Of a stretch of 64,000 nucleotides of DNA, positions 22,966-39,262 are shown piece after piece. Within the stretch, counting starts at the first letter, position 1. Every line of letters begins with the position of its first letter. The translations under genes were made by a program, and so were the position numbers. Source of the stretch: Anaerolineaceae bacterium. Lineage in GTDB: Bacteria; Chloroflexota; Anaerolineae; Aggregatilineales; Phototrophicaceae. The stretch is from positions 124,001 through 188,000 of the forward strand of contig WGMX01000010.1 in NCBI GenBank assembly GCA_016124855.1, given 5' to 3'. The notes beneath the pieces are model-generated. The model saw nothing but the letters and a program-made list of their open reading frames with translations, made no database searches and was not told the origin of the DNA.

Positions 22966-23056
22966 AGATGCCTATCGGAAGGTCGAATAGAGTCGCAAGA
23001 TTTACTCTTTAAGGTCACAGAATATGATTGCTGACTTGGGCACGTGAGAGATATCA

Positions 23057-23075
23057 ATTCTTCCCCTCGGCTCCA
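23057..23075 (+). repeat. Degenerate dispersed repeat R1, copy b
   Basis: ATTCTTCCCCTCGGCTCCA, matching 14518-14536 in 17 of 19 positions. Confidence 0.45.
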
Positions 23076-23263
23076 CATGTAGAGATATATTGAGACCGGG
23101 AATCCTGTATTTCAGATTTCCGTTTTTGTTTCCTAGAACAGCCGTCACAAACTGCCTTGCCTATCAGAAGGATGACGGCTGGTTAATCAGCGGGAGCAGC
23201 GCTCAGATGAGGAGTGCATGTTCGGGGCAGTTAAACGCCGAATTCAGCCCCTGTTTCAATCCA

Positions 23264-24079: not shown

Positions 24080-25037
24080 GTTGTTCTTCTCCTACCATAT
24101 TCATAAAGACTTCTTCCAGATCGTACTTTTTGCGACCAAACTGGGTCACATTCAGACTTTGATTTTCCAGTAAGAGCCGCAGCAGATGTGCTTCAGCAGC
24201 ATCCTCATCCGTGACGCTGATCTGCCAGCTCGTTGTGTTGCTGCCGTTGATCTGCGTGTTGATTGAGGATACCCACGGTTGGCTTGCTACACGGTTCTGT
24301 GCGCCGTTCACGTTTCCTTTGAAAGTGACATTGTAGACCACGCCCTCACTCCCGCTAAGCAGCGCTTCAATCGGCGCTTGGGCGATTAGTCGTCCGTGTT
24401 TCAGAATGGCAACCGTGTCGCTTACACGCTGGACATCGCTCAGAATATGCGTGGAATAAAAAATGGTGGTGTGTTTCCGCAGCCGCTCCATAACTTCCAG
24501 CACGTCATGACGCCCCATCGGGTCCAGTGCTGCCGCCGGTTCGTCCAGAATCAGCAGATCAGGGTAATTAATTTGCGCCTGCGCAATGCCAAGCCGCTGC
24601 CGTTCGCCACCCGAAAACCCTTTGATGGGGCGATCTGCTTTATCCACAAGCCCAACCAACTCCAGCGTATTGCTGATGCGTTCTTCGACAGCCGAATTAG
24701 GCCCGCGATAAAAAAAGCGGGCGATAAAGCGCAGTGTCTCGCGGGCGGTCATTCCCTCGTAGTAACGCGGGTCTTGTGCCAGATAGCCCACACGCTTGCG
24801 AATGTCGGTACTGTTTTTGACGACATCCATTCCGAATATGGATGCGCTGCCGCTGGAAGCACGTGCGAGTCCCAGCAGCAGTTTGATGGTGGTTGTCTTT
24901 CCTGCACCGTTCGGACCCAAAAAGCCAAAGATCGAGTTTTTCGGTACTTTCAGGTTTAGCGATTGCAGTGCGTTAACCCCTTTAAAGGTCTTTGTCAAAT
25001 TTTGCGTGTCGATGACCAGTGTATGGTTGTCATTCAT
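24069..25037 (-). CDS. ABC-2 transporter ATP-binding protein
   Basis: A 322-residue cytoplasmic ATPase. Walker A GPNGAGKTTT, the signature FSGGERQRLG, Walker B LLILDEPAAALDP and the H-loop (YSTHIL) are all intact. The C-terminal ~90 residues match the DUF4162-like tail of exporter ATPases. ATG at 25037 with GGGAGG upstream is the start; a longer frame from 25139 would overlap the small gene before it. It energises the permease at 23264. The substrate is unknown. Confidence 0.9.
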   Translation of the reverse strand: MNDNHTLVIDTQNLTKTFKGVNALQSLNLKVPKNSIFGFLGPNGAGKTTTIKLLLGLARASSGSASIFGMDVVKNSTDIRKRVGYLAQDPRYYEGMTARETLRFIARFFYRGPNSAVEERISNTLELVGLVDKADRPIKGFSGGERQRLGIAQAQINYPDLLILDEPAAALDPMGRHDVLEVMERLRKHTTIFYSTHILSDVQRVSDTVAILKHGRLIAQAPIEALLSGSEGVVYNVTFKGNVNGAQNRVASQPWVSSINTQINGSNTTSWQISVTDEDAAEAHLLRLLLENQSLNVTQFGRKKYDLEEVFMNMVGEEQHVH

Positions 25038-25101
25038 GGTAGATTGCCTCCCTACGTGCTTTTCTGATTCAAGTATTTGTGCGAACTCTCTATCATTTGT
25101 A

Positions 25102-25350
25102 CTAATCCGCTTCTCCTTCCTCTGGATGTCCATCTTCAATCAGGTTGACTGAGACAAGCTGGATGCCCAAGTCGCGAAGACGGTTCAAAACACCGTGCAG
25201 TGCTGCCTGATCCGGCAGCGAACCTATTAGCAGGGTCTCACCGCTATCTTCATGGTGGATCGTCAGCCCGTTGAGCCAATCTGTCCAGCTTTCATCGATA
25301 TGGTCTTTGATACGAATTTGGTAGTGTTTTCTCATGGCGTCTGCCTTCAT
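25102..25350 (-). CDS. Small conserved protein of unknown function (82 aa)
   Basis: Compact 82-residue soluble protein: MRKHYQIRIKDHIDESW, then a segment with GLTIHHEDSGETLLIGSLPD and QAALHGVLNRLRDLGI, and an acidic end. Similar short proteins are widespread in Actinobacteria and Chloroflexota (recalled, not searched) and have no assigned role. The start ATG at 25350 overlaps the hydrolase stop as ATGA; an internal ATG at 25335 is possible. It lies between a hydrolase and an exporter in one operon. Confidence 0.7.
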   Translation of the reverse strand: MKADAMRKHYQIRIKDHIDESWTDWLNGLTIHHEDSGETLLIGSLPDQAALHGVLNRLRDLGIQLVSVNLIEDGHPEEGEAD

Positions 25351-26324
25351 ATTGCTTCGGCTATCAACGAGGCCTGATGCGTCTCCGCAACCACTTTCAA
25401 GATGGCGTTGGATACGATATCCGCATATTTCTTTTCTGAAACCAGCGTGTAATGTGTTGCGCCTTCGACGGTAATGTGTTGGCTGCTGTCGGAAAGATTC
25501 GGTAGTTCATTCTGCAAAGCGGTTAACTCGTCGGCATAAACAGCCTGCTCAGTAACGCTGATCACCATCAGCGGCAGATTACCGAGCGGTCTGGCATGAT
25601 TAACTTGTTCTCGTGAGATGTCGCGCCATGCGACCAGTCCGTCCGCACCCACTATCCACGGTTCGGGCTGTGCCAGATAGGCACGCATTTCGGCAGATTG
25701 CCGGAGTGGTAATCCTTCAATGTAGGATTTTTCCAGCCGGAAAAGTCGAATGACTCCGAAACGGGCGAGGAAAGCCGTTGCCCGATTGATGCGCTCTACA
25801 GTCTGACCGCCCCGCGAAGCCGGGATAGACATCCATTGGTCAGGATGCGAACCATCAACGAGCACTAAACCGGCCACTTCATCCGGGTACAGATCAGCAA
25901 ACATGCGTACCACGAGGCCGCCGTAGGAATGTCCTGCCAGTACATAAGGCGCATGGCAGCCCGCATTGCGCAGCGCGGTATGCAGCTCACTAGCGCTTTT
26001 GGCGGCGTCTAAGGGCAGTGTGCCGGGGTCGCTCCAGCCTAGTCCGGCGCGATCATAGGCGATGACCTGCGTTTCTTTTGCCAGTTCTTGCTGCACCCAA
26101 ACCCAATTGGCCGAATAGGAGGCCATGCCTGCTTCGAGAATGACGGTAGGGCCGTCCATGCTTTCGCCCATGAGGTTGAGATGCAGCCGCCGACCACCGA
26201 TGTCCACCAGCTTGCCCGGTGGAGGAAATCGGCGTTTGTCGCGTTGAGTTGCGATGGTTTGATAGACAAACCCGGCTGCGGCTGCGCCGATAATGCTGAT
26301 TAATACAATGGTTAGGACGTTCAT
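25347..26324 (-). CDS. Alpha/beta hydrolase with N-terminal membrane anchor
   Basis: A 325-residue hydrolase. One N-terminal hydrophobic helix (residues about 2-24) is followed by the hydrolase fold. The oxyanion-hole region LILEAG-like VILEAGMASYSAN and VIAYDRAGLGWSDPG precede the nucleophile elbow AGHSYGGL (Ser nucleophile). The catalytic His is in EGATHYTLV and an acid is likely in LVDGSHPD. It probably hydrolyses esters, epoxides or similar small lipophilic substrates near the membrane; the substrate is unknown. It is the first gene of the unit driven by element A, 27 nt downstream of the predicted transcript start. Confidence 0.88.
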   Translation of the reverse strand: MNVLTIVLISIIGAAAAGFVYQTIATQRDKRRFPPPGKLVDIGGRRLHLNLMGESMDGPTVILEAGMASYSANWVWVQQELAKETQVIAYDRAGLGWSDPGTLPLDAAKSASELHTALRNAGCHAPYVLAGHSYGGLVVRMFADLYPDEVAGLVLVDGSHPDQWMSIPASRGGQTVERINRATAFLARFGVIRLFRLEKSYIEGLPLRQSAEMRAYLAQPEPWIVGADGLVAWRDISREQVNHARPLGNLPLMVISVTEQAVYADELTALQNELPNLSDSSQHITVEGATHYTLVSEKKYADIVSNAILKVVAETHQASLIAEAI

Positions 26325-26357
26325 GGTTTTCTCCCAGTGACCTGAACTTTTATGATC

Positions 26358-26416
26358 ACTCTAAGCTGCAAAAGGGTTGATTGCGGATAGCCAAAAGGCG
26401 TATTCAGGAGGTTGAT
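26358..26416 (-). promoter_or_regulatory. Regulon promoter element, copy A
   Basis: Reading the minus strand from 26416: ATCAACC box, core AATACGCCTTTTGG, second ATCAACC box 35 bp after the first, and -10 TAGAGT at 26358-26363, 53 nt after the element start. No -35 hexamer fits. It drives the hydrolase at 26324, the small protein and the ABC-2 exporter. Confidence 0.8.
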
Positions 26417-26454
26417 ATTTGAGAGGCAATCCGCTCATATTCGTGTGGCAACGG

Positions 26455-27498
26455 TTAACCGGAATGTATTGCCTCAACGACATTCATAATTGCTTCAATG
26501 ACAAGATCGGGCCGTTGGGCCTGAATGAAGTGATTCGATCCTTGTGCAACCACAACATGTGCATTTGGCATAAGCGAGGCGAACGCGAGCCGATCTTCGT
26601 AATAAATCTGTTCGTTCGGATTTGAGCCTAAATCTGGCGCGTGGATTAGTATGACAAGTGGCAGTGCGCTGCTCATAACTGGTAGTGCGGCGCCGTAGCG
26701 CAGGTTGGCAGGGTAGTAATTCATCTCTTCTCCCACCGACACGAAGTAGCGTGTCTGATTGGCAGCGGCGCTGTATGAAGGGAGCAATTCAGCAGGAAGG
26801 TCATGGCATATCGGCGACAGGCATCCTGCAAGACGAAAGATGCCAAGCAGATTGAGCAGACGCGCCGCAGCAATCTGCTTGAGTGACAACTCATTGGTAA
26901 TGATCTCATCATCTGCAAGATTAGCCGTAAGATATTCGGCAGCCGGACGATCTACCATAACCATTCCAACAACGTCCTCAGGAAACTGATTTACGTAAGT
27001 CTGAGTATGAATTACCCCAATCGAATGCCCTACAAGAATATATGGGCCCTCGATATGGGCGTTTGCCAACAGCGTGTGTAAATCAGTGGCGACCTGCTGG
27101 CTGGTACGTACATGGGTTCCGTCCTCGCTCCAAGCGTAGCCCTGACGATCATAGGCGCAGACACGGGTACTTCTGGCGATTTTCGGCTGGACCAGCGACC
27201 AGTCGAGCGATGAACCACCCGTTCCAGCTTCTAGAATGACCGTTGGACTGCCTTCGCCTATGCAGTGGATGTGCAGCCGAAAATCGCCAATGTCTATCAG
27301 TTGTCCCGGTGGTGTATAGGCTTGTCTATCGCTCGCTTCAGCCATCTGCTGATAGACCATGCCTGACAACAGCAAAGCGACCAGACCAATGCTGAACCAT
27401 TTCGCCACACGCAGTAAGGTGAACAGACAGCCGCGCTTAAGGGGCGTTACTTCCGTTTTGACTGTGCTTTCACTGGCTGAAGTCATCGTACTCATCAT
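26455..27498 (-). CDS. Alpha/beta hydrolase with N-terminal membrane anchor
   Basis: A 347-residue hydrolase. The N-terminal segment has KRGCLFTLLRVAKWF and a hydrophobic helix ending in GMVYQQ, a leader shared with neighbouring hydrolases. Fold motifs are VILEAGTGGSSLDW, VCAYDRQGYAWSE and the nucleophile elbow VGHSIGVI, where the usual G-x-S-x-G is G-H-S-I-G. The catalytic His is in AQGSNHFIQ. It forms its own transcription unit behind element B. About 30-40% resemblance by eye to the other anchored hydrolases suggests local duplication and divergence. Confidence 0.88.
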   Translation of the reverse strand: MMSTMTSASESTVKTEVTPLKRGCLFTLLRVAKWFSIGLVALLLSGMVYQQMAEASDRQAYTPPGQLIDIGDFRLHIHCIGEGSPTVILEAGTGGSSLDWSLVQPKIARSTRVCAYDRQGYAWSEDGTHVRTSQQVATDLHTLLANAHIEGPYILVGHSIGVIHTQTYVNQFPEDVVGMVMVDRPAAEYLTANLADDEIITNELSLKQIAAARLLNLLGIFRLAGCLSPICHDLPAELLPSYSAAANQTRYFVSVGEEMNYYPANLRYGAALPVMSSALPLVILIHAPDLGSNPNEQIYYEDRLAFASLMPNAHVVVAQGSNHFIQAQRPDLVIEAIMNVVEAIHSG

Positions 27499-27539
27499 CC
27501 TTATCCTTTAAGCTGATCAGTTGTTGGTTCGATATCGTT

Positions 27540-27598
27540 ACTGTAAGCGGCGGGAAGGTTGATTGTGGATAACCAAAAGGCGTATTCTGGGGGTTGAT
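27540..27598 (-). promoter_or_regulatory. Regulon promoter element, copy B
   Basis: Same arrangement as the other five copies: ATCAACC starting at 27598, core AATACGCCTTTTGG, a second ATCAACC, and -10 TACAGT at 27540-27545 exactly 53 nt from the element start. The gene start is at 27498. Confidence 0.8.
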
Positions 27599-27614
27599 TG
27601 TTGGAGGTAGGAAG

Positions 27615-27657
27615 AAAATGGTCAGGATAAGAGAGCGGCCTATACCCTGACCATTTT
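27615..27657 (-). terminator. Terminator hairpin after the membrane-protein gene
   Basis: Inverted arms AAAATGGTCAGG (27615-27626) and CCTGACCATTTT (27646-27657) enclose about 19 bases, 12 bp beyond the stop at 27669. The stem is strong. Directly next to it begins element B for the following unit. Confidence 0.7.
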
Positions 27658-27668
27658 TGTTTAACGCA

Positions 27669-28718
27669 TTAGGAGTTTGGAAGCGGGATCTGTACCATTT
27701 TCGGATTTTCCCGTCTTACCGATGATGCAGCCCAACTCCACATGAGCAGAATGAGGGCGATTGCCGAAACAACAATACCGGTCAGCAGAAAACTACCCCC
27801 GACTTGCTGGACGACAGGGACGACCAGTTGCGCTATCGCTTCACGATAGGCGGTGCTGTGCTGCACGGCGAACCATCCGGAAGGTACAGAACTAATTGAG
27901 ACAATCACCGCCGGTGATACCAGAATCAGTCCCGCCAACACCGCCAGCCCTCCCGGCACAAACAGCGCTGCACTGTACCACCGCAGCCGTCCGCGCATAT
28001 CATCTCCACCCAAAATTGATCCCACGAAAGCGGCGCCCGCCGCAGTAACAATGATCAGCAAGATTGAGACATCGAGTACCGCGTGAACACCACTACCGAG
28101 CAGCCAAGCATAGTCGTACCAATTTGTACGAAGGTAACCCCTGTTACCAATGACAATCGTGTCCGGCGAGGCTTCAAGGGCAGCAGGCAGCGCAGCAGTT
28201 ATTTGGTTTGCTGCCTCATCCACCGAGACCCCGGGCGCGATGCAGCGGGTCAACCTACCACCAACCGCAATTGACGACTGACCAATCTCACAATTCGGGA
28301 GCGCCGCCGCCAGCGCTGTGGCGAAGACTTTTCCCTTTTCGCCTACCAAATCAGCCTTAAGTGGTGAAATATCCAGCATCACTTGGAAGTTCTGCTCACG
28401 CCCTTCAATGAAGTCGAACACATCATTGACTACCTTCGTGGCCTGCGTCCGCAGATAATCTGGCGTTGCTACTTCGCGAAGGGCGATACTGAGTGCGTCC
28501 AGAGGAAGCTGTTCGACGGTAGTAAAGACTTTCTGATCAAATTGGGCAGATAAATCATCTGTCCACAACGTTTCGTAAAGCCGTTCATCGCCGACAAGTC
28601 GCTCATAAAAGCCCCGATCTAGTATCCATGGACGTATCGAAATCAACGTCATCGCTGCGAATGCCAGCGGCAAATAGATGACCAGTAAGATTGATACAGC
28701 AACTAATTTGCGCATCAT
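27669..28718 (-). CDS. Membrane protein of unknown function
   Basis: A 349-residue protein with one N-terminal transmembrane helix, a ~190-residue extracytoplasmic domain (starting RPWILDRGFYERLVGDERLY) and about three C-terminal helices. The ectodomain has two cysteines (one in ALPNCEIGQS, one in LTRCIAPG) about 20 residues apart that could form a disulfide. The start is ATG 28718 with AGAGGAG upstream. I do not recognise a family beyond hypothetical membrane protein. It is co-transcribed with the RDD protein 32 bp upstream. Confidence 0.7.
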   Translation of the reverse strand: MMRKLVAVSILLVIYLPLAFAAMTLISIRPWILDRGFYERLVGDERLYETLWTDDLSAQFDQKVFTTVEQLPLDALSIALREVATPDYLRTQATKVVNDVFDFIEGREQNFQVMLDISPLKADLVGEKGKVFATALAAALPNCEIGQSSIAVGGRLTRCIAPGVSVDEAANQITAALPAALEASPDTIVIGNRGYLRTNWYDYAWLLGSGVHAVLDVSILLIIVTAAGAAFVGSILGGDDMRGRLRWYSAALFVPGGLAVLAGLILVSPAVIVSISSVPSGWFAVQHSTAYREAIAQLVVPVVQQVGGSFLLTGIVVSAIALILLMWSWAASSVRRENPKMVQIPLPNS

Positions 28719-28750
28719 TACATCTCCTCTTGTTTGAATTGAATAGCCTG

Positions 28751-29152
28751 CTATTCGGTTTTGACCACATAGGTGTTGGCGAGTTTGTCGTGCCAACCTT
28801 GGCGATTTTCGTCAATGAGCATCCACAACCAGCCGATGCACCAGACGAAATTGATGATCGTACCGATAAAACGAATCACTGCGTCAGCATCACTAATCGG
28901 GCTGCCGTCGGTTTTCATCACGCGGATTTTCATGAGCATCATGCCCAACGTCTGACCATTGTTGCGAGTCAGGAAAAACCATGTGTACGCCAGTCCAAAA
29001 ATGAAACCGATGCTTAGTCCCGGATTGTGCGCGGCAAAAAATCCCGCCCCTTCGATAATGAAGAGGATTGCCCCATCAATCGACCAAGCTATAAAACGTG
29101 TCCCGATATCGGCCAGTTCGTAGTTTGCCTTTTCATATACCTGTGCTGTCAT
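28751..29152 (-). CDS. RDD-family membrane protein
   Basis: A 133-residue protein with three hydrophobic helices. The RDD hallmark is visible as ADIGTRFIAWSIDGAILFII (conserved Arg and Asp residues), followed by NNGQTLGMMLMKIRVMKTDG and the closing LIDENRQGWHDKLANTYVV. RDD proteins are small membrane proteins, in some cases linked to transport or ion stress; the role here is unknown. AAAGGAGG precedes ATG 29152. It is the first gene of the unit driven by element C. Confidence 0.88.
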   Translation of the reverse strand: MTAQVYEKANYELADIGTRFIAWSIDGAILFIIEGAGFFAAHNPGLSIGFIFGLAYTWFFLTRNNGQTLGMMLMKIRVMKTDGSPISDADAVIRFIGTIINFVWCIGWLWMLIDENRQGWHDKLANTYVVKTE

Positions 29153-29203
29153 GCTTAATCCTCCTTTGGATTGCACCGACAATGGCGCTCGTTCAATAAC
29201 TGA

Positions 29204-29262
29204 ACTTTATGCGATTAAGCGGTTGAGATTGGGTAGCCGAAAGGCGTATTTCAGGGGTTGAT
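29204..29262 (-). promoter_or_regulatory. Regulon promoter element, copy C
   Basis: ATCAACC from 29262, core AATACGCCTTTCGG, second box degenerate (CTCAACC), -10 TAAAGT at 29204-29209, with the same 53-nt distance. It drives the RDD/membrane-protein unit. Confidence 0.8.
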
Positions 29263-29266
29263 TGTT

Positions 29267-29293
29267 GGAGGGCTGACACGTAATCAGCCCTCC
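29267..29293 (-). terminator. Hairpin terminator after the alpha/beta hydrolase at 29302
   Basis: Perfect 10-bp stem GGAGGGCTGA / TCAGCCCTCC with a 7-base loop, 8 bp beyond the stop codon. It abuts element C. Confidence 0.7.
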
Positions 29294-29301
29294 TTTGTCG
29301 G

Positions 29302-30366
29302 CTAATTTTCCAGCGGTTCGCCTGTCTGCACAGCCTGAATGACTTCGAGGACGGCATCTGTCACCTGCTGGGCATACTGTTCACTGCCGAGGATCGAGCC
29401 GTGATCTGCGCCTTCGATCACCCGTGTGACACTGTTGGATGAAAACGTAGAAATGTTCGCACGGATAGCAGGTGCTTCTACGATCATTGAATCGGTACCC
29501 GTCCAGCTTTCCGACGCCCATAGGACTGCCATTGGAAGACTGCCTAGTGTCTCGGCAGCCGTAGCGGCCTTTAATATCGCCCAGTAATTGGTCTGAAACT
29601 CGGCGAAGTCCGAATCAACAACCTGATTTCGTGCATGAAGGGCTGTTATTTCGGCAGCAATATCCGCCGGGTATCCGGCGCGTTGGAATTGACCCGGATC
29701 AAGGAGGCGTGTCAAGCCAAGTCGTGTCAGCACGTCGAACAGCGTGTGCAGACCTGCTGACTGTCCGAGCCATGTATCAAAATCACTCTGACTGTCAAAA
29801 TGATCGGGAATGAGAATCGCGCTATCGACAAGCACAATGCCCATAACATCATCAGGATATTGACTGGCGTAGATTCGCGTCAGGACAGCGCCCCAAGAAT
29901 GCCCGGCCATCACATAGGGTGACTGAATCCCTGCTTGTGCAAGTAGGGTATGAAGTTCGCTGGTTATAGTGAGTGCATCATGTGATCCGCTGACGGGTTC
30001 GCTCCAACCGTAGCCGGGGCGGTCATAGGCGCAGACCTGTGTGTGCGCTGCCAGCTGGTTCTGGACACGATACCACCACAACGACTCCGCTGCACCACCC
30101 GCCTGCAAAATGACTGCCGGACTGCCTTCACCCATGCAGACCAAATGCATCTGGTGACCGTTCACCATATAAAGCTGACCGCGCGGCGAATATGCGCGTT
30201 TGTCCAATTCGACTGCGGCGGCCTGATAGATTACACCGAGCAGCAGAAGTGTCACCAGAACGATACCGAACCATTTCAAGGCACGTTTAGCGTAGAAAAG
30301 GCAGCCGCGTTTCTGAGCGTGCGCCCCGCCAATACTATCGGTTTGTGTGGAGACGGAAGGCGTCAT
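29302..30366 (-). CDS. Alpha/beta hydrolase with N-terminal membrane anchor
   Basis: A 354-residue hydrolase. The N-terminus has QKRGCLFYAKRALKWFG and a hydrophobic helix, then HLVCMGEGSPAVILQAGG, VCAYDRPGYGWSEP and the nucleophile elbow AGHSWGAVL. The catalytic His lies in EGADHGSILG. It is about as similar to the hydrolase at 32778 (both have DHGSIxG) as to the others. It is co-transcribed with the CPBP protease 27 bp upstream. Confidence 0.88.
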   Translation of the reverse strand: MTPSVSTQTDSIGGAHAQKRGCLFYAKRALKWFGIVLVTLLLLGVIYQAAAVELDKRAYSPRGQLYMVNGHQMHLVCMGEGSPAVILQAGGAAESLWWYRVQNQLAAHTQVCAYDRPGYGWSEPVSGSHDALTITSELHTLLAQAGIQSPYVMAGHSWGAVLTRIYASQYPDDVMGIVLVDSAILIPDHFDSQSDFDTWLGQSAGLHTLFDVLTRLGLTRLLDPGQFQRAGYPADIAAEITALHARNQVVDSDFAEFQTNYWAILKAATAAETLGSLPMAVLWASESWTGTDSMIVEAPAIRANISTFSSNSVTRVIEGADHGSILGSEQYAQQVTDAVLEVIQAVQTGEPLEN

Positions 30367-30393
30367 GATTGATCTCCTTTGGATAAACTATCC

Positions 30394-31185
30394 TTAAACT
30401 GTGGATGGAACGGGTTCGCTAACCTTCTGGTCCAGCGGTTGCGACAGCCACATATGCCAACCGACCAAAACGAGAACTGCGGTTATCAGTGAATAACTGA
30501 TTACTGCCAACCATTCCCCCTCTGGTATCAATGGCGCGACGAAAGTGAAGGAATTCAAGGAGATGTGCAGAACGGTAGAGACCACTACCTTATGTTTGCT
30601 TTTGATGAAAATCCACGTCAGGGCGAAGGTAATCGGCAAAATAGCGAGCCCGTCCCAGATCCCTGTTCTGCCCGGTACATAAAGAAAGACAAGTAAAAGG
30701 TGAATAACGCCCCACGGAACACCGATGATGAGGCTAGCTGCGAGGGGTGAATGGCGATCCAGTAAACGGCGCAGTGCGAAACCACGCCAGCCGATTTCTT
30801 CCAAGAGCGCCGCGTGCGGAACCACCAGCAGGCGGAAAACAACCGGTGCGCTGATCGTGATCACCGTAATCTTGCCCAAGAGCACCGCCAAAACGCTCAC
30901 GCCAAAATTCATCAGGAAACCGATACCGATGGCGATAATGGCCCACTTAAGCGTGCCGCGCCAGCGGAAACACTCGCGCACAAAAGCCATCACACCCCGA
31001 CGTCCGCCCATGATCGCCTCAAGTCCAATGGCGACGATTGTCGGAAACATGACCAAGATCAGTGCGATGATGGCGAAGGCCATTTCTCCTTCCACTGGCA
31101 AAAACAACGATGCGACGGATAGCCCCAGCGTGAGGACGATAAAGCTGGCGACGGGATTCTGCGTAATCATTGCCTTGAGATTCAT
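30394..31185 (-). CDS. CPBP-family intramembrane metalloprotease
   Basis: A 263-residue polytopic membrane protein of the CAAX-protease/bacteriocin-processing (Abi) group. The conserved motifs are LLEEIGWRGFALRRLL (EExxxR), GVIHLLLVF and a later HISLNSF with metal-binding histidines. About seven helices are predicted. ATG 31185 with AAAGGG upstream is chosen; the longer frame from 31239 reads through the -10 of element D. It may cleave membrane-associated peptides; the substrate is unknown. Confidence 0.88.
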   Translation of the reverse strand: MNLKAMITQNPVASFIVLTLGLSVASLFLPVEGEMAFAIIALILVMFPTIVAIGLEAIMGGRRGVMAFVRECFRWRGTLKWAIIAIGIGFLMNFGVSVLAVLLGKITVITISAPVVFRLLVVPHAALLEEIGWRGFALRRLLDRHSPLAASLIIGVPWGVIHLLLVFLYVPGRTGIWDGLAILPITFALTWIFIKSKHKVVVSTVLHISLNSFTFVAPLIPEGEWLAVISYSLITAVLVLVGWHMWLSQPLDQKVSEPVPSTV

Positions 31186-31225
31186 GTTGTTTTCCCTTTC
31201 AAAGTTGTAATCGTTTGACACGGAT

Positions 31226-31284
31226 ACTCTACACGACAAAAGGGTTTAGGATGGACAGCCGAAAGGCGTATTCCGGGGGTTGAT
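31226..31284 (-). promoter_or_regulatory. Regulon promoter element, copy D
   Basis: ATCAACC from 31284, core AATACGCCTTTCGG, degenerate second box (CTAAACC) and -10 TAGAGT at 31226-31231, again 53 nt apart. It drives the CPBP protease/hydrolase unit. Confidence 0.8.
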
Positions 31285-31291
31285 TGTTGGT

Positions 31292-31312
31292 GGGATGGTT
31301 GCCGACCACCCC
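31292..31312 (-). terminator. Hairpin after the PAF-acetylhydrolase-like gene
   Basis: GGGATGGT and ACCACCCC (one G-T pair) form an 8-bp stem with a 5-base loop, 12 bp beyond the stop at 31324 and just before element D. There is no long T-run. Confidence 0.55.
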
Positions 31313-31323
31313 ATCGTTACGGT

Positions 31324-32640
31324 CTAGTTTGCGTGAACTTTGAGGGTCACTTCGGGATAATCCGGTGACGTGCTATCCAGAAGCGGTGACGATTTGTCTT
31401 TCAGGTACTGATCAAAGAAGGCAGCAATGTAAGCATTGATGATGTGATTGGCGCGCCCCGCGGGAATACTGCCAAAGGCGTCGGCAGGAGCCCCGAACGC
31501 TAATGCACTTGCTAGTGCGCTGCCAGTGGTGTAAGTGACGTGTTTAGAACCGTCTAGCACGAACAGGTAGCCCGGTGCGCCGTTTTCGTAAACGGTTTGT
31601 ACCGTCATCTTGCCACGCGTGACGATAAACTCGGCATTGTCTACCGCTGCTCCGGCTTGAATCAGCATGTCCGTTGTCATCGAGGCTTGCTCATCCGAAA
31701 GCATCAACATGATCGGGCGATTGACGCCTTCCCATGCTGAATCGCCAACCAGTGTGCCGTCCATGTTGATTGCGGCGAGGAAACGTGGGTCGTCATGCAG
31801 CGCCTCGACCGCTGCGCCGCCGCCCATCGAATGACCGAAGACACCAACCCTCGATAGATCGAGGTGTCCTGATAGGAAGGGATCCTCGGACTCTAGGCGC
31901 TCCAACTCATCAAGGGTGAAGCGAATATCGCTGGCCCATACATCACTGATTGGGCTAACCACCGCAGCGAATTCGTCTTCATTCGTCGCTTTTGCGGTGA
32001 TCTGGCTTAGCGCACGGCTGCCAAACTCAGCACTGGATCTGATGACGCGACCATCAGGGAAGATTGTTGCACCGGTACTGTAGGGATGCGAGAGTGCCAC
32101 GACGATATAACCCTGACTGGCGACTTCCTCTAAAGTTGGCGTATAGACCAGTGGCATGAAGCCCATACCCGGCGAGAATATGAGCACTGGAAATGGTGCC
32201 GTGTTGCTGACAATACCAACGTTGGTATAGCTCTGCGAACGGATGGTATCCAGAATAAAACCGGGAAGCCGTAGAACATCCGCGGTCACTGTTTTCAGTG
32301 CACCCTCGGTAAACGGTGCAGGTGACGCGCCTTCGGGTACGTCTGCCGGGTAATAAATGGTGGCCATCAACTCGCGCAGGTCGTCTGGCGCTTCGCTGAA
32401 AATTTCGGGGCGAGACTCATCGAGCAAATGGTATTCGACTTTACCAACCGGATACTGGCCGGTGAGCGGAGGATAATTTACCAAGCCCCGAGACCAAGCG
32501 ACGACTCCGAAGACAACCATGATGCCAACCGCGACGATCAGCGCAAATAGCCCACGCTTGATGTAAAAAAGCCAGCTACGCTTGCGATCAGTAGGTTCTG
32601 AACGTTTCATGTCTTGATTTGACGCTGAGATCGCACTCAT
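31324..32640 (-). CDS. PAF-acetylhydrolase/dienelactone-hydrolase-like enzyme, membrane-anchored
   Basis: A 438-residue hydrolase. The N-terminus SWLFYIKRGLFALIVAV plus a hydrophobic stretch resembles the anchor of the neighbouring alpha/beta hydrolases although the catalytic domain is of a different family. The catalytic features are FGHSMGGGAAVEAL (Ser nucleophile), AINMDGTLVGD (acid) and LDGSKHVTYT (His). VLIFSPGMGF is typical of the plasma PAF-acetylhydrolase group. A phospholipid or short-chain ester substrate is likely. It is a single-gene unit behind element E. Confidence 0.85.
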   Translation of the reverse strand: MSAISASNQDMKRSEPTDRKRSWLFYIKRGLFALIVAVGIMVVFGVVAWSRGLVNYPPLTGQYPVGKVEYHLLDESRPEIFSEAPDDLRELMATIYYPADVPEGASPAPFTEGALKTVTADVLRLPGFILDTIRSQSYTNVGIVSNTAPFPVLIFSPGMGFMPLVYTPTLEEVASQGYIVVALSHPYSTGATIFPDGRVIRSSAEFGSRALSQITAKATNEDEFAAVVSPISDVWASDIRFTLDELERLESEDPFLSGHLDLSRVGVFGHSMGGGAAVEALHDDPRFLAAINMDGTLVGDSAWEGVNRPIMLMLSDEQASMTTDMLIQAGAAVDNAEFIVTRGKMTVQTVYENGAPGYLFVLDGSKHVTYTTGSALASALAFGAPADAFGSIPAGRANHIINAYIAAFFDQYLKDKSSPLLDSTSPDYPEVTLKVHAN

Positions 32641-32679
32641 CCTATTACCTTCCTTGTCTAAGTGTTATTCGTTACGGTC

Positions 32680-32738
32680 ACTCTAAGCGGTAAAGGGGTT
32701 GATTGCGGATAGCCGAAAGGCGTATTGAGGTGGTTGAT
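32680..32738 (-). promoter_or_regulatory. Regulon promoter element, copy E
   Basis: ATCAACC from 32738, core AATACGCCTTTCGG, second ATCAACC, -10 TAGAGT at 32680-32685, 53 nt from the element start. It drives the PAF-acetylhydrolase-like gene (start 32640). Confidence 0.8.
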
Positions 32739-32742
32739 TATT

Positions 32743-32768
32743 GGAGGGGCATTTCGCCTTTCCCCTCC
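32743..32768 (-). terminator. Hairpin after the alpha/beta hydrolase at 32778
   Basis: GGAGGGG and CCCCTCC make a 7-bp GC-rich stem with a 12-base loop, 10 bp beyond the stop and immediately before element E. There is no T-run. Confidence 0.55.
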
Positions 32769-32777
32769 ATCAAGATG

Positions 32778-33842
32778 CTAATGAGCTACAGGTTGATCGC
32801 TGCGGATAGACTCCAGCACATCGTGAACGGCTTGAGTGACCTGCGCCGCATAATCCATATTCCCGATGATCGAACCGTGATCTGAGCCATCAACAATGCG
32901 CGTGGCACTGTTGGAAGAAGAGACGGGTACAAGCGTCCAGATTGCTTCCAGTTTGGCGCGGTCTTCCGGTGCAGTCAGTTCAGGATGCCCCGCCCATAAA
33001 ACCACCAGCGGCAGCGCCCCCGCGTCTCTGGCAGCATTTGCTTGCTGGCTCAGTTCCCACTGTGCGAGGCGCACTTCTGCGTCCCACGTATTGACAGCAC
33101 TCAAGGTTGATTTGAAGGCTGTTAATTCGTCTACAATCAGCGCGGGATAGCCGTAGCCCCTAAATTCATTGCGGATGATGAAGCGCAGTGCACCGACTCT
33201 GCCTAAAGTCATCATGACACCATAAGCACTGGCATTGGTGTCCATATAATTTTGAAACTCAGCGTCCGTCCAGTTTAAGCCTATCGGAACCGCGGAGTCG
33301 ACCAGCACCAACCCTTGCACTTCAGCGGGATACTCCCGGGCATAAATCGAATTGGTGACACCGCCCAGCGAATGACCGACCATGATGTAAGGGGGCGCTA
33401 CACTGGCCGCTTTCAGCAGCGCGTGTAAATCATGAGCAATGGTCAGGCCATCACGCGGCCCGCCGACGGTTTCGCTCCAACCATTACCCGCCCGATCATA
33501 CGAGCACACGCGGTTGGTACTTTCAAGTTGGTGCTGTACCCAGTACCACTCCGACGAAAAGCTGTAAGCGCCTGCCTCTAAGATGATCGTGGGACTGCCC
33601 GTGCCGGTGCAGTTGATGTGCATCAGGTGACCGTCAACGGTGACCATCTGGCCCGGTGGTAGATAGGTGGCTTTGTCACTCGCTTCGGCAACGGTTTGAT
33701 AAGTCATGCCAACTACTGAGACGGCGACGAGCAGCAAGATTATGATTAGCAAACCGCGCTTGACATAGAATCCCGCACCTCGCTTGCGTCGAGCCGTTTG
33801 AGGCGATGGGCTTTGTGTGTTGGTCGTCGTAAGTTTGTCCAT
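32778..33842 (-). CDS. Alpha/beta hydrolase with N-terminal membrane anchor
   Basis: A 354-residue hydrolase. The leader has KRGAGFYVKRGLLII and a hydrophobic helix ending in GMTYQT. The fold motifs are INCTGTGSPTIILEAGAYS, VCSYDRAGNGWSET and the nucleophile elbow VGHSLGGVT. The catalytic His is in VDGSDHGSIIG. The 64-bp gap to the upstream serine hydrolase gene has no regulon element, so it is probably the third gene of the unit started by element F. Confidence 0.88.
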   Translation of the reverse strand: MDKLTTTNTQSPSPQTARRKRGAGFYVKRGLLIIILLLVAVSVVGMTYQTVAEASDKATYLPPGQMVTVDGHLMHINCTGTGSPTIILEAGAYSFSSEWYWVQHQLESTNRVCSYDRAGNGWSETVGGPRDGLTIAHDLHALLKAASVAPPYIMVGHSLGGVTNSIYAREYPAEVQGLVLVDSAVPIGLNWTDAEFQNYMDTNASAYGVMMTLGRVGALRFIIRNEFRGYGYPALIVDELTAFKSTLSAVNTWDAEVRLAQWELSQQANAARDAGALPLVVLWAGHPELTAPEDRAKLEAIWTLVPVSSSNSATRIVDGSDHGSIIGNMDYAAQVTQAVHDVLESIRSDQPVAH

Positions 33843-33905
33843 TTCTTTTTATATCCTTTATGTAACGGGACTTGCTTTACGTGCTCAGACGCCCGCACCG
33901 ACATT

Positions 33906-35450
33906 TTAGGCTGCCTGCAGCACCCCGCCCACAGCATGTGACGATGATGAGCGCAGCAGAATAACAATCCCCACAATTCCCCAGCCCATCCATCCCGCTG
34001 CCAGCAAGCCGCCCAGCACGAAACCCAGCCCCCAGTCAGGAATGTAAACCAGTAGTGTTTCAAAGCGCAAACCGGCAAATTGTGGCAGTCCAACAAGGAA
34101 GATATAGGCGACTAGCAGGTTGAGGACTACAGGCAGAATGATGCGAACGAGTACTTGTCCCAAACCGTGCGGACGGCTCTCAAGATTGCGGTTCCAGCGG
34201 CGCAGCCGGAACGCTCCCCGTATCAAAGTCACGAGCTGTATTGCGACAATCAAAAATGTTAACCAGAATAGGATCCGGGTAAATGGAACATTATCCTGAA
34301 CCGGCTGGTTGACTAACATACCCATCACTTTCCACGTCATGGACTCAATCGGCTGCGTCATTAATAACAGATGGTCTGCGTTCGTGAGGATGACCACACC
34401 CCAACCGTTATCAGACGATACCGCCATATGGCTGTGGAAACTCCCGCTGCTGCCGCTGTGATCGTTGCCCGATATTTCATACGGCACATCCGTCGTCCAA
34501 CCCAGTGCATAGTTACTGTGTTCGTCGCGCGGGATATAGGTTGGTGCTTGCCAGAGCTGCGCAATGCTGTCCGGCGAAAGCAACACGTTTGCACCGTACT
34601 TCCCTTTATTCAGGTAGGGGATCAAATAATGCGAAATATCCTCTGCTGTCGAGATGATTCCACCAGCAGCTTCGATTGCGTAAGGGAAAGGCAAATCAAC
34701 CGGAAATGGTTGGTCAAAACGCATTTGATAACCCGTCGCCATCCCGTGTTGGCGTGCTTCTTGTTCCGATAAAAACGTATTGGTCATAGCAAGTGGCGTG
34801 AAGATATTTTCGTTGAGATACTGTTCGTAAGATATGCCGCTGACTGCCTCGACAACCAGTCCAAGAATGGCATAGTTAGCGTTGCTATATTCCGGTACTT
34901 CCCCGACTGGATGGGATAATTTCACATCACTCAACCCGCGAACATAGGTCTCAGGGCTGAGCACACGGGGATTGTCAACAGGCAGAAATCGAACCCCCGT
35001 GAGGCGCGAAATCCCGCTGGTATGATTCAATAGATGGCGTAAGGTGATACGTGTAGAAGCGTCATCATCCGCCAGCCTGAACCACGGCAGGTAGCGTCGA
35101 ACGGGCGCATCCAGTTCCACCTGTCCCGCTTCTACTAACTGCATGATCGCCACCGCCGTGAATGACTTGGTCAGTGAGGCCACCATGAAGGGTGTCTGCG
35201 GAGTGACAGGACGTCCCGATGGATCGGCAATGCCAAAACTTTGCAGGTGAACAACGTTGTCACCGTGAACGATTCCTAGTTCGAGACCCGGCAGATTGGC
35301 GCTTTTCATACTGGATTCCACAAACGCATCAATGGCTGCAAAATCCGGCGTACTGGACTGTGCAATTGTCACGGGCAGACCAGCGACAAAGACGGCTGTC
35401 AGAAAAACTATCCCTACCATCACGCGAGCCGAAACCTTCCTAACATTCAT
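33906..35450 (-). CDS. Beta-lactamase-type serine hydrolase with C-terminal membrane helices
   Basis: A 514-residue class C beta-lactamase/penicillin-binding-like hydrolase. The N-terminal signal peptide runs from VSARVMVGIVFL to about TIAQSS. The nucleophile motif is VASLTKSFT (SxxK), the second is EYSNANYAI (YxN), and a late HSGSSGSFHSH replaces the classical KTG. The last ~150 residues contain about four hydrophobic helices, an organisation seen in esterase-like members. It may act on cell-wall peptides or D-amino-acid esters. ATG 35450 has CAGGAG upstream. Confidence 0.88.
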   Translation of the reverse strand: MNVRKVSARVMVGIVFLTAVFVAGLPVTIAQSSTPDFAAIDAFVESSMKSANLPGLELGIVHGDNVVHLQSFGIADPSGRPVTPQTPFMVASLTKSFTAVAIMQLVEAGQVELDAPVRRYLPWFRLADDDASTRITLRHLLNHTSGISRLTGVRFLPVDNPRVLSPETYVRGLSDVKLSHPVGEVPEYSNANYAILGLVVEAVSGISYEQYLNENIFTPLAMTNTFLSEQEARQHGMATGYQMRFDQPFPVDLPFPYAIEAAGGIISTAEDISHYLIPYLNKGKYGANVLLSPDSIAQLWQAPTYIPRDEHSNYALGWTTDVPYEISGNDHSGSSGSFHSHMAVSSDNGWGVVILTNADHLLLMTQPIESMTWKVMGMLVNQPVQDNVPFTRILFWLTFLIVAIQLVTLIRGAFRLRRWNRNLESRPHGLGQVLVRIILPVVLNLLVAYIFLVGLPQFAGLRFETLLVYIPDWGLGFVLGGLLAAGWMGWGIVGIVILLRSSSSHAVGGVLQAA

Positions 35451-35484
35451 GTGATATTCTCCTGATCGATTGTGAATGAACGGT

Positions 35485-36399
35485 TTAGAAACCACCTGCC
35501 AGCAGAATGACGATATAGACCGTGAAATCAGACACGAAGTGCATAAACAGCGGCCATGCAAAACCGCGTGTTTCGACCATGCTCTTGGCAAATACCCAAC
35601 CGCCGATAGTGGTCAGAATCACGCCGGTGACTCCCGATGGCACACCGAAGTAATGCCCCATGCCAAACCACGAAGCCACGAGAATCAGAGACGCCCCTTT
35701 GCTAAACAGCGGCAGCACTTGGGGAAGCAGCGCCGAACGGTATAGAAACTCTTCGGCAAAAGCGTTCATCACAGCGCATAATGCGGCGAACAACACCAAG
35801 CCAACCGACAAATTGCTCAGTGATGGTTTCATAGCAGGAACCATGAAGACCAGCAAAATCGTGACGATAATGAAGGCGTAGCGGATGCTGAATCCCGGCC
35901 ATTTCTCCGTTCGGCGCGGAACGCCATATTTTTCCGGCTCGGCGGTGGCTGTGAGACTGCCCGGTGTTAGGAAAAAATCCTGCCGCTTCAACCCCATCGC
36001 CAGCAGCACCAGCAGCATGACGAGGGACGCCCCGATGCGCATCAACCGTTCCCCAAAGAATGCAAGGTTCGGATTGCCGCCGAATAGCTGCGAATAGAGC
36101 GGGCTGTGGGGCACGAACGTCCCGAAAAACCAGCCTTCAACGCCATAAATCACGAGAAAAATCAGCGCGAAGCCCCTCAGTGGTCGGATAGAAGGCCACA
36201 CAAAACTCAATGCCACCAGAATCCCTAAAAGACCAACACGTACTGGCAGCATCCACGAGGTATCCATGTGCATGAAAGCGCGTAGAACGATCTCAGGAAT
36301 GGTTAACGCCAACACAATGGCCCATGCCGTGACGAGTAAAGAGCGATTTCCACTGACTGCTTGAGATGAACTGACCGAGACAGCGATAGTTGGACGCAT
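35485..36399 (-). CDS. CPBP-family intramembrane metalloprotease
   Basis: A 304-residue polytopic membrane protein. The CPBP motifs are FAEEFLYRSALLPQ (EExxxR), WFGMGHYFGVPSG and LFMHFVSDFTVY. About eight helices are predicted. GGAGGG precedes ATG 36399, which is preferred over an ATG at 36414. It is the first gene of the unit driven by element F, upstream of the serine hydrolase (gap about 34 bp). Confidence 0.88.
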   Translation of the reverse strand: MRPTIAVSVSSSQAVSGNRSLLVTAWAIVLALTIPEIVLRAFMHMDTSWMLPVRVGLLGILVALSFVWPSIRPLRGFALIFLVIYGVEGWFFGTFVPHSPLYSQLFGGNPNLAFFGERLMRIGASLVMLLVLLAMGLKRQDFFLTPGSLTATAEPEKYGVPRRTEKWPGFSIRYAFIIVTILLVFMVPAMKPSLSNLSVGLVLFAALCAVMNAFAEEFLYRSALLPQVLPLFSKGASLILVASWFGMGHYFGVPSGVTGVILTTIGGWVFAKSMVETRGFAWPLFMHFVSDFTVYIVILLAGGF

Positions 36400-36440
36400 A
36401 ATGACTCCCTCCATTTCATATCGAGACGATTGATATGGTC

Positions 36441-36499
36441 ACTTTATGTTGCAAAGGGGTTGATCGCGATTAGCCAAAAGGCGTATTCAGGGGGTTGAT
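36441..36499 (-). promoter_or_regulatory. Regulon promoter element, copy F
   Basis: ATCAACC from 36499, core AATACGCCTTTTGG, second ATCAACC, -10 TAAAGT at 36441-36446; the distance is 53 nt as in the other copies. It lies between the divergent CPBP gene and the first LuxR regulator and ends only 9 bp before the regulator's own -35 box, so the regulator could also control itself here. Confidence 0.8.
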
Positions 36500-36507
36500 A
36501 CTTTTAG

Positions 36508-36536
36508 TTGCGGTGTATCACAGCTGTTGTTACACT
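36508..36536 (+). promoter_or_regulatory. Promoter of the first MalT-like LuxR gene
   Basis: TTGCGG (36508-36513), 17 bp, TACACT (36531-36536). The transcript would begin near 36543, about 23 nt before the ATG at 36566. Confidence 0.5.
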
Positions 36537-36565
36537 AAACTGCTTTATAGAATCGGGATAATTTC

Positions 36566-39262
36566 ATGGTCGTATCAGCGGCGGACATTTTACGAACGAA
36601 GCTGACACCTCCACCTGTCCGCGCTGACCTTGTCCTTCGTCCCCGTCTTACTCAACTGTTCAGCGCCAGTTTAGAACATCCGCTTACGCTTATCTGTGCG
36701 CCTGCCGGATACGGTAAAACCACATTGTTGGGCGAGTGGATCGTTTCTGACGCAGGGAGAGCGATTCCTGTTGCATGGCTGTCGCTGGACGAGGATGACA
36801 ACGATCCAGTTCGTTTTCTGACTTATTTGATATCGGCTGTGGCCAGTGTCAACGATATAGATCTTGTCGAAATGCTTTCCCTGCTTCGGTCTCCTCAGCC
36901 ACTGCCACCAAAGGCTGTACTCACAGCGCTCATAAGCCGCTTGGAAGATTTTCCTCAGCATTTCATTCTTGTGCTGGATGACTATCACCTTATCGCCGCA
37001 GCACCCATTCACGAAGCATTGACATTTTTGCTTGATCATCTTCCTGCCCGGATGCGTCTTATCATGACTAGTCGGGAAGATCCACTATTACCGCTGGCGC
37101 GTCTTCGAGGGCGTGGGCAACTTGCGGAAATTCGTGCTGATGATCTGCGCTTTACGCCGGATGAAGCCAAGCAATTTTTAGAGCAGATGCTGGGCGTTGA
37201 ATTAAGTATTGAGCAAATCAACAACTTGGATGTGCGAACTGAAGGCTGGATAGCCGGGCTGCAAATGGCGGCGCTGGCGATGAAAGGGCGCGAAGATGTT
37301 GGAGGATTCATTTCGGCCTTCACGGGTAGTCACCGCTTCATACTCGATTATTTGACCGAAGAAGTATTGAGCAGACAGTCCGAACAAATTCAGAATTTCT
37401 TATTGGAAACATCAATACTGAAGCGTATGAGTGGAGCACTCTGTGATGCGCTAACTGGCAGAATGGATGGACAAGTGGTATTGGAACAGATCGAACGAAA
37501 TAATCTGTTCTTAATTCCACTTGATCAGGATCGTCACTGGTTCCGTTATCACCATCTGTTTGGTGACATACTGTATCGGCATTTGCAGCGCACAAAGCCT
37601 AATTTAGTTTTAGAACTGCATCGCCGTGCCAGTACGTGGTTTGAAGAACACGGCTGGCTAGGTGAAGCTGTCGGATATGCGCTTGCTGGAAAAGACAATG
37701 AACTGGCAGTTCGTCTCGTTGAGCATTACGGTGAACGTTTGCGATTGATAGGGGAAGTCGATACTGTCTTGCGCTGGTTGGCCGCCCTTCCCGATGAGGC
37801 TCGTCGTTCACGTCCAAAACTTGAGTTGAACTATGCTTTCTTACTTGCCAGAAATAGCGCGACTGTAGAAGCAGAGCAACGTGTCGAATGGGTAGAACAG
37901 AAACTGCTAAAGGAAAAAGGCAGCGCAAATGAACCTGAACGAAAAGCGCTCTTAGGGCAAGCGGCAGTTGTTCGTGCCACGTTGTCGCTTATCGCAGCAT
38001 ACGAAGGCGATAAAACGATCAGTGCAGGGCGTCATGCGCTTGATCTTCTGCCAGACTCAGATCTCCACTGGCGCAGTTGGGTCAACATGATTCTTGGTAT
38101 TACTTATCTAGAGTCAAAGGGAAACACAACTGAGGCAAAACGCTGGCTAGATGAGGCCGCCCGAATGGGAGAAAAAATCGGCGATGTTTTTATTCAAATG
38201 ATTTCAATCTTCCATCTCACAAGGATCGATATTGTTCAAGGAACGCTTCAGCAGGCTGAAAATAGGTGTAACACATTGCTGCGACTTGCTCACGAGCCTG
38301 TCTGGAAAGGTCAGCCGGCCGCCGGCTATGCACGACTGAATCGGGCATGGATACGTTTTGAGCGAAACGAGTTGGAAGCGGCACATGAAGATGTCGTTGC
38401 AGCGCACAACATCATGGAAGCCTATGGACTTACGACCATGTCGCTTGCCGGCGACGTTCTTCTAGCGTGGATAAATCATATACAGGGTCACCAAGCCGAA
38501 GCCCACGAGTTGATGCAGAACGCGAATGAGACGATTCGTCGAAAAAAACTGACACTGGTATTTGTATCCGCCTCAGCTTGGCAGGCGTGGTTGTCACTAA
38601 AGCAAGGTGATCTTCTATACCCGATCCAATGGTCTCGGAGTATAGAAGAAACTATAAAAGGCAGTCTTGACCCTGCATTGGAATTTGAACACATAACGCT
38701 CGCTCGTGTCCTTATAGCTCAGGGGCGTTTAGACGAAGCACAAGAATTGCTAATGAGCTTGTACTTAACGGCAAACAACAACGGACGGTTGGGAAGGGTT
38801 ATTGCAATCTGCATCCTTCAAGCGCTTGCCACGTCCATGCAAGGAAACATTGATCATGCAATTGATCAATTAATGTATGCACTCTCTCTAGCTGAACCAG
38901 AGGGCTATGCTCGTACTTTCTTAGACGAGGGTCCATTGATGTTAGCGCTGCTGCGCGAAACAAAAACCCGCGGTATCGCGGTGGATTATGTGACGAAACT
39001 GCTTGCTGCATCTGACTATGCGGCAGCAGCAGAAAGCAATACTTCTCAACATCCAAGTGCTGGTGAATTGGAATCGCTGAGTGAACGCGAGTTAGAAGTA
39101 TTACAGCTTATCGCCGAAGGAGCATCTAATCGTGAAATAGCCAATATGTTGGTGATTAGCATCGGCACCGTCAAGAAGCACCTGAACAACATTTTTCTCA
39201 AACTTGATTCTCACAGTCGCACTGAGGCCGTTGCCACTGCTCGCAAGCACAACATTCTGTAG
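36566..39262 (+). CDS. MalT-like LuxR (LAL) transcriptional activator
   Basis: An 898-residue STAND-type regulator. The N-terminal NTPase has Walker [11 protein letters not shown] (K51) and the downstream [12 protein letters not shown] long helical TPR-like region (about 350-820) follows, then a C-terminal LuxR DNA-binding domain (about 832-895: [20 protein letters not shown], then [20 protein letters not shown]). Such proteins bind ATP and an inducer, then oligomerise on repeated DNA boxes. It is divergent from the regulon unit F and is the best candidate to bind the six shared elements (inference). A close paralogue follows. Confidence 0.92.

Follow-up and report, generated by a model that had tools for sequence, protein, structure and literature searches.

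The closest described counterpart found for the locus analysed here is a large maltose-regulated genomic region of Actinoplanes sp. SE50/110 under the control of MalT, in which one motif recurs at 17 transcript starts (PMC7567727). Escherichia coli MalT needs ligand, ATP and oligomerization to bind several promoter sites (PMC10427625), and its box, GGGGA(T/G)GAGG, contains GGGGATGA and lies next to the -35; the MalT sites of both organisms overlap the -35 (PMC7567727). Here we describe six copies of a long upstream element in a 64,000-nucleotide stretch of an Anaerolineaceae genome (contig WGMX01000010.1; the window), ahead of genes for hydrolases, membrane proteases and an exporter. The element stands at several units, in fixed register with both a -10-like hexamer and the start codons, is conserved in homologous loci, nearly confined to such clusters and linked to one clade of MalT-like regulators, which are the properties of a shared operator. 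It is probably the operator and -35-less promoter of a MalT-like activator that drives membrane-anchored esterases, CPBP proteases and an ABC exporter.

Like the Actinoplanes region, the locus has a MalT-like regulator inside the cluster, a second MalT-like paralogue nearby, a repeated motif, no recognized maltose genes and a gene order rearranged in relatives (PMC7567727). A MalT-like activator encoded within its cluster and paired with a repeated motif is thus of a known kind, and the claim of an initial annotation of this DNA, that no such locus had been described, was too strong. The Actinoplanes motif is a palindrome, TCATCC-N5-GGATGA, overlapping the -35, whereas here a different core lies between two direct TCAACCCC boxes that are 33-35 bp apart, and several Actinoplanes genes resemble amino-acid metabolism, whereas ours encode mostly envelope hydrolases, proteases and an exporter. 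With E. coli MalT, the proposed activator would share the domain plan and the binding of oligomers to several sites per promoter (PMC10427625); on the opposite strand, the boxes read GGGGTTGA, one base from the GGGGATGA of the E. coli box, just as TCAACCCC is one base from its reverse complement (PMC7567727). Unlike for E. coli MalT, Pfam and NCBIfam scans recognized no maltose gene among the thirteen cluster genes, the regulator scores 444.1 bits with the NCBIfam MalT model PRK04841, under the curated cut-off of 537 for a MalT equivalog, and the second box lies nearer the proposed start. The central core has no counterpart in the E. coli maltose regulon as described in the available parts of PMC10427625 and PMC7567727. 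In the literature searched, with most subscription journals outside it, we found no description of the element, of a MalT-like regulon or of an assigned MalT-like STAND site in Chloroflexota. What is new is how the element is built, the set of envelope-hydrolase genes, the lineage in which the system occurs and the evidence that two regulator-element pairs exist in parallel.

The initial annotation had proposed six same-orientation elements of 59 bp and of one geometry, with a hexamer 53 nt from the element start, a second box 35 bp after the first and no visible -35. The copies all lie on the minus strand where it had placed them (Table 1), and alignment, shuffles and a scan of the assembly bear out both number and geometry. 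In the six aligned 59-mers, 33 of 59 columns are invariant, including ATCAACC (positions 1-7), AATACGCCTTT (13-23), GG (25-26) and TA.AGT (54-59); the distance to the hexamer is 53 in all six, and box 2, which begins 35 bp after box 1, reads TCAACC in five and TAAACC in copy D. A 42-base degenerate pattern, with up to three mismatches allowed, matches six times in the window and not once in 100 dinucleotide shuffles. The extent had to be revised: in a profile built on 44 of 49 copies gathered from the window and 16 fetched pieces (two truncated matches and three more rows were dropped), the conserved block extends over about 76 bp, taking in further bases ahead of box 1 and a weaker TAwCGAA behind the hexamer, and information is near zero on both sides of it. 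The gap between box 1 and core also varies by 1-2 bp in relatives, and core and box 2 keep their register in nearly all copies. At the fixed place of the hexamer, the 44 aligned copies hold T in 41, A in 42 and the final T in 42; an exact TANAGT is found there in 33 of the 49 copies, 2 of the 16 misses being truncated matches that were anchored wrongly. The centre of the element is a near-dyad, ATACGCC-TTTY-GGCTAYCC, between the two direct boxes. Half-sites with an 11-bp period, attractive by eye, were dropped, as none of the lags and inverted centres rose above the 95% bound obtained from column shuffles.

Start codons were counted by a mechanical first-start rule for 47 of the 49 copies, leaving aside the two truncated matches. 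A downstream start codon follows 46 of them, within 60 nt in 39 (36 of these with a Shine-Dalgarno-like site) and at a median distance of 40.5 nt; in six copies the distance exceeds 120 nt, and some of these are followed by a short open reading frame (ORF) instead. A sigma-70 scan of positions 23000-36700 found no pair at any element on the minus strand, and 10 pairs overall against 11.7 expected, one of which, on the plus strand (26412-26441), overlaps the end of copy A. Class II activators of the LuxR/NarL type sit near -43 at promoters without a -35. With a transcript start assumed 7 nt after TANAGT, the centre of the GCC-TTTY-GGC dyad falls near -43, a likeness to such promoters in both position and missing -35, although the dyad here is weak and has a direct box on either side.

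The window is part of contig C10 in a 7.09-Mb assembly of 84 contigs (97.7% complete, 9.1% contamination). A sequence-only covariance model of the element (R1) finds the six copies in this assembly at 59-69 bits, and the seventh-best match reaches 13.4 bits. Over 200 relatives, R1 gives strong matches in nine further genomes; of 154 genomes of the order, 10, our own included, carry the element at E <=1e-4. Relaxing the threshold to E <=0.1 brings matches in 41 of the 200; 31 of these have none at E <=1e-4 and are not counted as carriers. Only three carriers are found among the 90 genomes with a completeness of 90% or more and a contamination of 5% or less. In a 400-genome sample of the phylum, evidently without the nine relatives, only our own genome matches at E <=0.001, and an exact degenerate core pattern run over GTDB 220 (84,980 species) yields 14 stretches in nine metagenome-assembled genomes, which are the same nine relatives. 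The initial annotation had named absence from homologous loci and random placement as grounds for refutation; instead, the element recurs in these nine genomes, has no other strong copy in the assembly and mostly stands close before a start codon.

Five fetched pieces hold an element without a clade-type regulator as neighbour, namely L077 (which continues L076), L080 and L091 (short contigs), L089 and L090. L089, with a copy at 7952-7988 (37 bits) ahead of an alpha/beta hydrolase, comes from another contig of G063; it is an exception to the confinement, being a 68.7-kb contig with no regulator in the 16 kb fetched. The weak match in L090 (G141, 7482-7529, 22.3 bits) was dropped, as its neighbour is a different NB-ARC/LuxR regulator whose GerE domain scores best against the unlinked paralogues. 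In G039, two contigs (L084 and L085) each hold a clade-type regulator together with elements.

The gene for regulator 1 starts 67 bp from copy F and diverges from it, copy F lying within the gap that separates this regulator from the genes behind the element. The protein has Pfam matches to TPR_MalT (7.6e-61) and GerE (1.1e-17), both above gathering thresholds, and to AAA_16 (24.9 bits, under the 32.6 cut-off); between residues 11 and 417 it matches chain 8bob_C of E. coli MalT (1.2e-59), and the protein has a GYGKTT P-loop. Judged by its sequence, it belongs to the MalT-like STAND-LuxR regulators, with a predicted STAND NTPase, MalT-type TPR and C-terminal GerE domain. Regulator 2 follows, and then a third, more distant LuxR-type STAND gene at 42534-45455; ten stretches of the genome are listed as matching MalT-like STAND regulators.

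The linkage to this type of regulator recurs throughout the carriers. In all 11 cluster pieces that hold both, a regulator starts 0-83 bp from an element and diverges from it, with start codons taken from a mechanical ORF caller; three of these regulators are truncated (L081, L082 and L084) and too short for the tree. In a tree made by a quick method from 59 of 63 hits, with midpoint root and regulators under 650 aa left out, the 14 element-labelled regulators form one branch (SH-aLRT 100) apart from 45 other paralogues, counting one (L083, a short contig without an element) that was labelled by genome only. The label requires a single change on this tree, against a shuffled mean of 12.8, and none of 500 shuffles came as low. 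The 13 complete GerE domains of the clade share four invariant positions, A, S, G and K, which we take to lie in or near the recognition helix; the 45 unlinked paralogues have the same residue in 2, 21, 5 and 8 cases, respectively. A clade-type regulator is present in all ten carrier genomes, at 670 bits or more in eight; that of G055 (732.7 bits) was read from fetched DNA, and that of G042, outside the tree, is only a fragment of 331 aa where a contig breaks off (487 bits). Genome-wide scoring considered at most five candidates per genome, with matches listed to E 1e-186, so that weaker or broken copies would not appear, and G055 not among them. Among the matches listed, identity to regulator 1 is 43-58% for the regulators from other genomes, those of G052 and G063 being close to each other, and G102 (634 bits) and G065 (631 bits) have a regulator but no element at E <=1e-4. 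L078, L086 and L087 have one regulator in the fetched piece and the same element, which suggests that one regulator suffices. MalT-like STAND regulators are numerous in these genomes, and here one clade acquires a sharply defined candidate site through the 44-copy alignment.

We propose that a MalT-like STAND-LuxR activator, the product of the gene beginning beside one element copy, would bind ATP and some ligand and then oligomerize, its assembly on the element being suggested by analogy with E. coli MalT (PMC10427625). The GerE domains would settle on the near-dyad, whose centre lies about 43 bp ahead of the expected start, and on the direct TCAACCCC boxes flanking it; with no -35 hexamer to rely on, RNA polymerase would be recruited by the activator to the weak TANAGT -10. 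As such recruitment would take place at every element, the units of the cluster would fire together, the genes within each unit presumably being co-transcribed, and from the shared gap at copy F the regulator might also act on its own gene. The products are predicted to be mostly envelope proteins, that is, membrane-anchored esterases, CPBP proteases, an RDD protein, a beta-lactamase-fold hydrolase and an ABC exporter, so the system may serve the envelope. The regulon of hydrolases, proteases and an exporter under an activator, as put forward in the initial annotation, fits the element, its orientation, confinement and conservation; activation and the role of TANAGT as -10 stay conditional, and the regulator, which had not been named, now has a candidate. 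The element would be a ready reporter promoter for finding the ligand.

Several points weigh against activation from TANAGT by regulator 1. Where a cluster has two or three regulator paralogues, any of them might be the one that binds the element. Likeness to the MalT box over an 8-mer with one mismatch is, taken by itself, weak evidence; the internal direct and inverted repeats are not significant against whole-element column shuffles (z 2.15 for the 35-bp box repeat, bound 3.34); and no clear excess of TANAGT is seen ahead of other genes, as judged from small counts in 283 upstream regions of control loci in relatives. None of 16 other genomes of the same genus (G001-G016) carries the element at E <=1e-4, so its occurrence in the order is patchy, as arises by loss or transfer. 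With TANAGT as the -10, moreover, box 2 would lie at about -29 to -22, nearer the start than MalT sits in E. coli or in Actinoplanes, and another conserved patch, with T in 27 and A in 36 of 44 copies, stands 11 bp after TANAGT. These last two points are what an alternative would explain that we consider unlikely but worth keeping in view, in which the MalT-like protein binds but mainly represses, or TANAGT is part of the binding site and the TAwC about 11 bp further is the true -10. The G at the fifth place of TANAGT is unusual for a sigma-70 -10. With the shift, box 2 would come to lie at about -39 to -32, close to where MalT is described to bind in E. coli (PMC7567727). However, TANAGT is much better conserved than TAwC, and the absence of a sigma-70 pair on the element strand speaks for activation; at L087:9864, a short-leader copy whose start codon lies at +30, transcription directed by TAwC would produce a leader only about 12 nt long that opens with the Shine-Dalgarno site, which is unfavourable without being prohibitive.

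The remaining explanations are less likely still. If the element were the recombination site of an integron-like cassette array, with modules of element, gene or genes and hairpin, this would suit the single orientation of all copies within each cluster, the differences in gene content and order between clusters, the patchiness within the order and the upstream stems of at least eight pairs found in 10 of 47 copies, against 1.1% in base shuffles. We nevertheless regard it as very improbable, because the consensus fold of the 59-bp element has no conserved base pairs of the attC kind, only variable hairpins standing upstream of some copies, because the -10-like hexamer and the distance to the start codon are held, and because the linkage to one regulator clade would go unexplained; nor was an integrase seen among the cluster genes scanned, a scan that did not cover every ORF. 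The lack of conserved pairs, together with the absence of any Rfam match at E <=1 in window positions 22000-43000, also makes it barely conceivable that the block, despite its place upstream of genes, is a structured RNA leader such as a riboswitch or attenuator common to the units, and most of it lies upstream of the hexamer. Mere duplication of promoters along with paralogous genes, which several units beginning with paralogous alpha/beta hydrolases might bring to mind, has next to no probability in our view: the first genes are of different families (alpha/beta hydrolase, RDD, Rce1-like and PAF-acetylhydrolase-like, and in relatives beta-lactamase-fold too), and beyond the element hardly any information is left, although the regulators of other genomes are so far diverged from regulator 1.

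Behind the six elements, thirteen genes can be counted on the minus strand, as the initial annotation had it, whereas its six transcription units would follow from gene position only: four alpha/beta hydrolases, one PAF-acetylhydrolase-like and one beta-lactamase-fold protein, two Rce1-like proteases, an RDD protein, a 375-aa and an 82-aa ORF, and the exporter pair (Table 1). The N-terminal hydrophobic segments of the four alpha/beta hydrolases and the PAF-acetylhydrolase-like protein were called by a simple hydropathy scan. ORFs of 78-82 aa (about IRIKGHLDESWADW...PDQAALHGLLNRLRDLGI) precede the ABC ATPase gene in the window and in L088, L079 and L084. A shorter ORF of 36-44 aa (MSKVKRQMRPNA...) with a Shine-Dalgarno-like site lies between element and beta-lactamase-fold gene in two genomes (L077 from 4424, plus strand; L080 from about 4364, minus strand). 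Intercistronic hairpins occur in the window at 27615-27657, 29267-29293 and 32742-32769 and at similar places in relatives, often ending where the next element begins; they are possible terminators without a U tract, and a terminator scan found 10 candidates against 12.4 in shuffles.

Table 1. Elements, cluster genes and regulators in the window, and copies of a second element class in fetched loci (L) and in another contig of the same genome (G000:C59). Start-codon distances are in nt after the hexamer.
Feature	Position	Strand	Evidence	Remarks
Element copy A	26358..26416	minus	68.7 bits	Start codon +34; ahead of alpha/beta hydrolase 25347-26324, 82-aa ORF and ABC exporter pair
Element copy B	27540..27598	minus	61.8 bits	Start codon +42; ahead of alpha/beta hydrolase 26455-27498
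Element copy C	29204..29262	minus	59.0 bits	ATG with AGGAGG at +52; ahead of RDD and 375-aa ORF
Element copy D	31226..31284	minus	61.6 bits	ATG +41 (first-start rule chose GTG +5); ahead of Rce1-like and alpha/beta hydrolase
Element copy E	32680..32738	minus	66.3 bits	Start codon +40; ahead of PAF-acetylhydrolase-like hydrolase
Element copy F	36441..36499	minus	63.3 bits	ATG +27 without Shine-Dalgarno-like site, inner ATG 15 nt further; ahead of Rce1-like, beta-lactamase-fold and alpha/beta hydrolase
ABC-2 type permease	23264..24079	minus	PF12679	
ABC ATPase	24069..25139	minus	Best NCBIfam model DrrA, below cut-off	
82-aa ORF	25102..25350	minus		Similar 78-79-aa ORFs before exporter in three fetched relatives
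Alpha/beta hydrolase	25347..26324	minus	PF00561, hydropathy	N-terminal hydrophobic segment
Alpha/beta hydrolase	26455..27498	minus	PF12697, hydropathy	N-terminal hydrophobic segment
375-aa ORF	27669..28796	minus	No Pfam or NCBIfam match	Adjoins RDD in related clusters
RDD-family membrane protein	28751..29152	minus	PF06271	Start moved to ATG with Shine-Dalgarno site
Alpha/beta hydrolase	29302..30366	minus	PF00561, hydropathy	N-terminal hydrophobic segment
Rce1-like (CPBP) membrane protease	30394..31185	minus	PF02517	Start moved to after element
PAF-acetylhydrolase-like hydrolase	31324..32640	minus	PF03403, hydropathy	N-terminal hydrophobic segment
Alpha/beta hydrolase	32778..33842	minus	PF00561, hydropathy	N-terminal hydrophobic segment
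Beta-lactamase-fold serine hydrolase	33906..35591	minus	PF00144, hydropathy	Hydrophobic segments near C terminus; true start probably further in
Rce1-like (CPBP) membrane protease	35485..36414	minus	PF02517	
MalT-like STAND-LuxR regulator 1 (898 aa)	36566..39262	plus	Pfam TPR_MalT, GerE	Proposed activator
MalT-like STAND-LuxR regulator 2 (893 aa)	39341..42022	plus		58% identical to regulator 1
Second-class copies, L145	8815, 6413, 4168	minus		
Second-class copies, L137	12049, 13960	plus		
Second-class copies, L140	14561, 12646	minus		
Second-class copies, L147	6697, 4807	minus		
Second-class copies, G000:C59	165, 2490, 4715			Own genome

As a control, upstream regions were compared within 40 loci around unlinked paralogues, some of them too short for pairs, a pair being at least 23 identical bases of 30. 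Repeated upstream pairs appeared in three control loci (L145, L146 and L125), against ten of 17 element-side sources, and one of the three led to a second element: AATACCCTATGTGGGGTATGACACTACCCC followed by TAYYCT, with nine copies in four fetched loci of another MalT-like clade, L145 among them. A model of this element (R2) finds 20 copies in nine of the 154 genomes of the order, and in eight of the nine the 3' end of a second-clade regulator has a copy at it or directly behind it (G012 and G031 supplied the reference proteins, to which the remaining six show matches of 78-82% across about 500 aa). In our own genome this regulator is not visible because the first R2 copy lies 165 bases from the end of contig C59. 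Neighbours of the second element again include alpha/beta and beta-lactamase-fold hydrolases. Both elements occur together in four genomes, our own, G039, G042 and G136, and the latter three also hold a regulator of each clade type, that of G042 as a fragment.

When 19 of the 20 second-class copies are compared with the first class, the register that aligns the hexamers outscores every one of 2000 column shuffles made in it; shifting by 9 bases gives a better score, however (0.126 against 0.092), and 0.092 is below the 95% all-offset bound of 0.099, so that a layout common to both classes is suggestive only. We tentatively consider that the order may carry mutually insulated promoter systems, each MalT-like clade having its own co-evolved, long, multi-copy and -35-less element, a ligand-assembled oligomer and a private set of envelope hydrolases, a generalization we rate as possible but short of probable. 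Since the second clade has a different candidate site, the relation between GerE recognition residues and DNA sequence becomes testable. In L125 (G000:C20), a further repeat, AATACTCCTCACG.TACTCCTTT followed by TACTGTG, stands in two copies on the minus strand, at 7950 and 5717, beside a further MalT-like regulator, and is perhaps a third element class.

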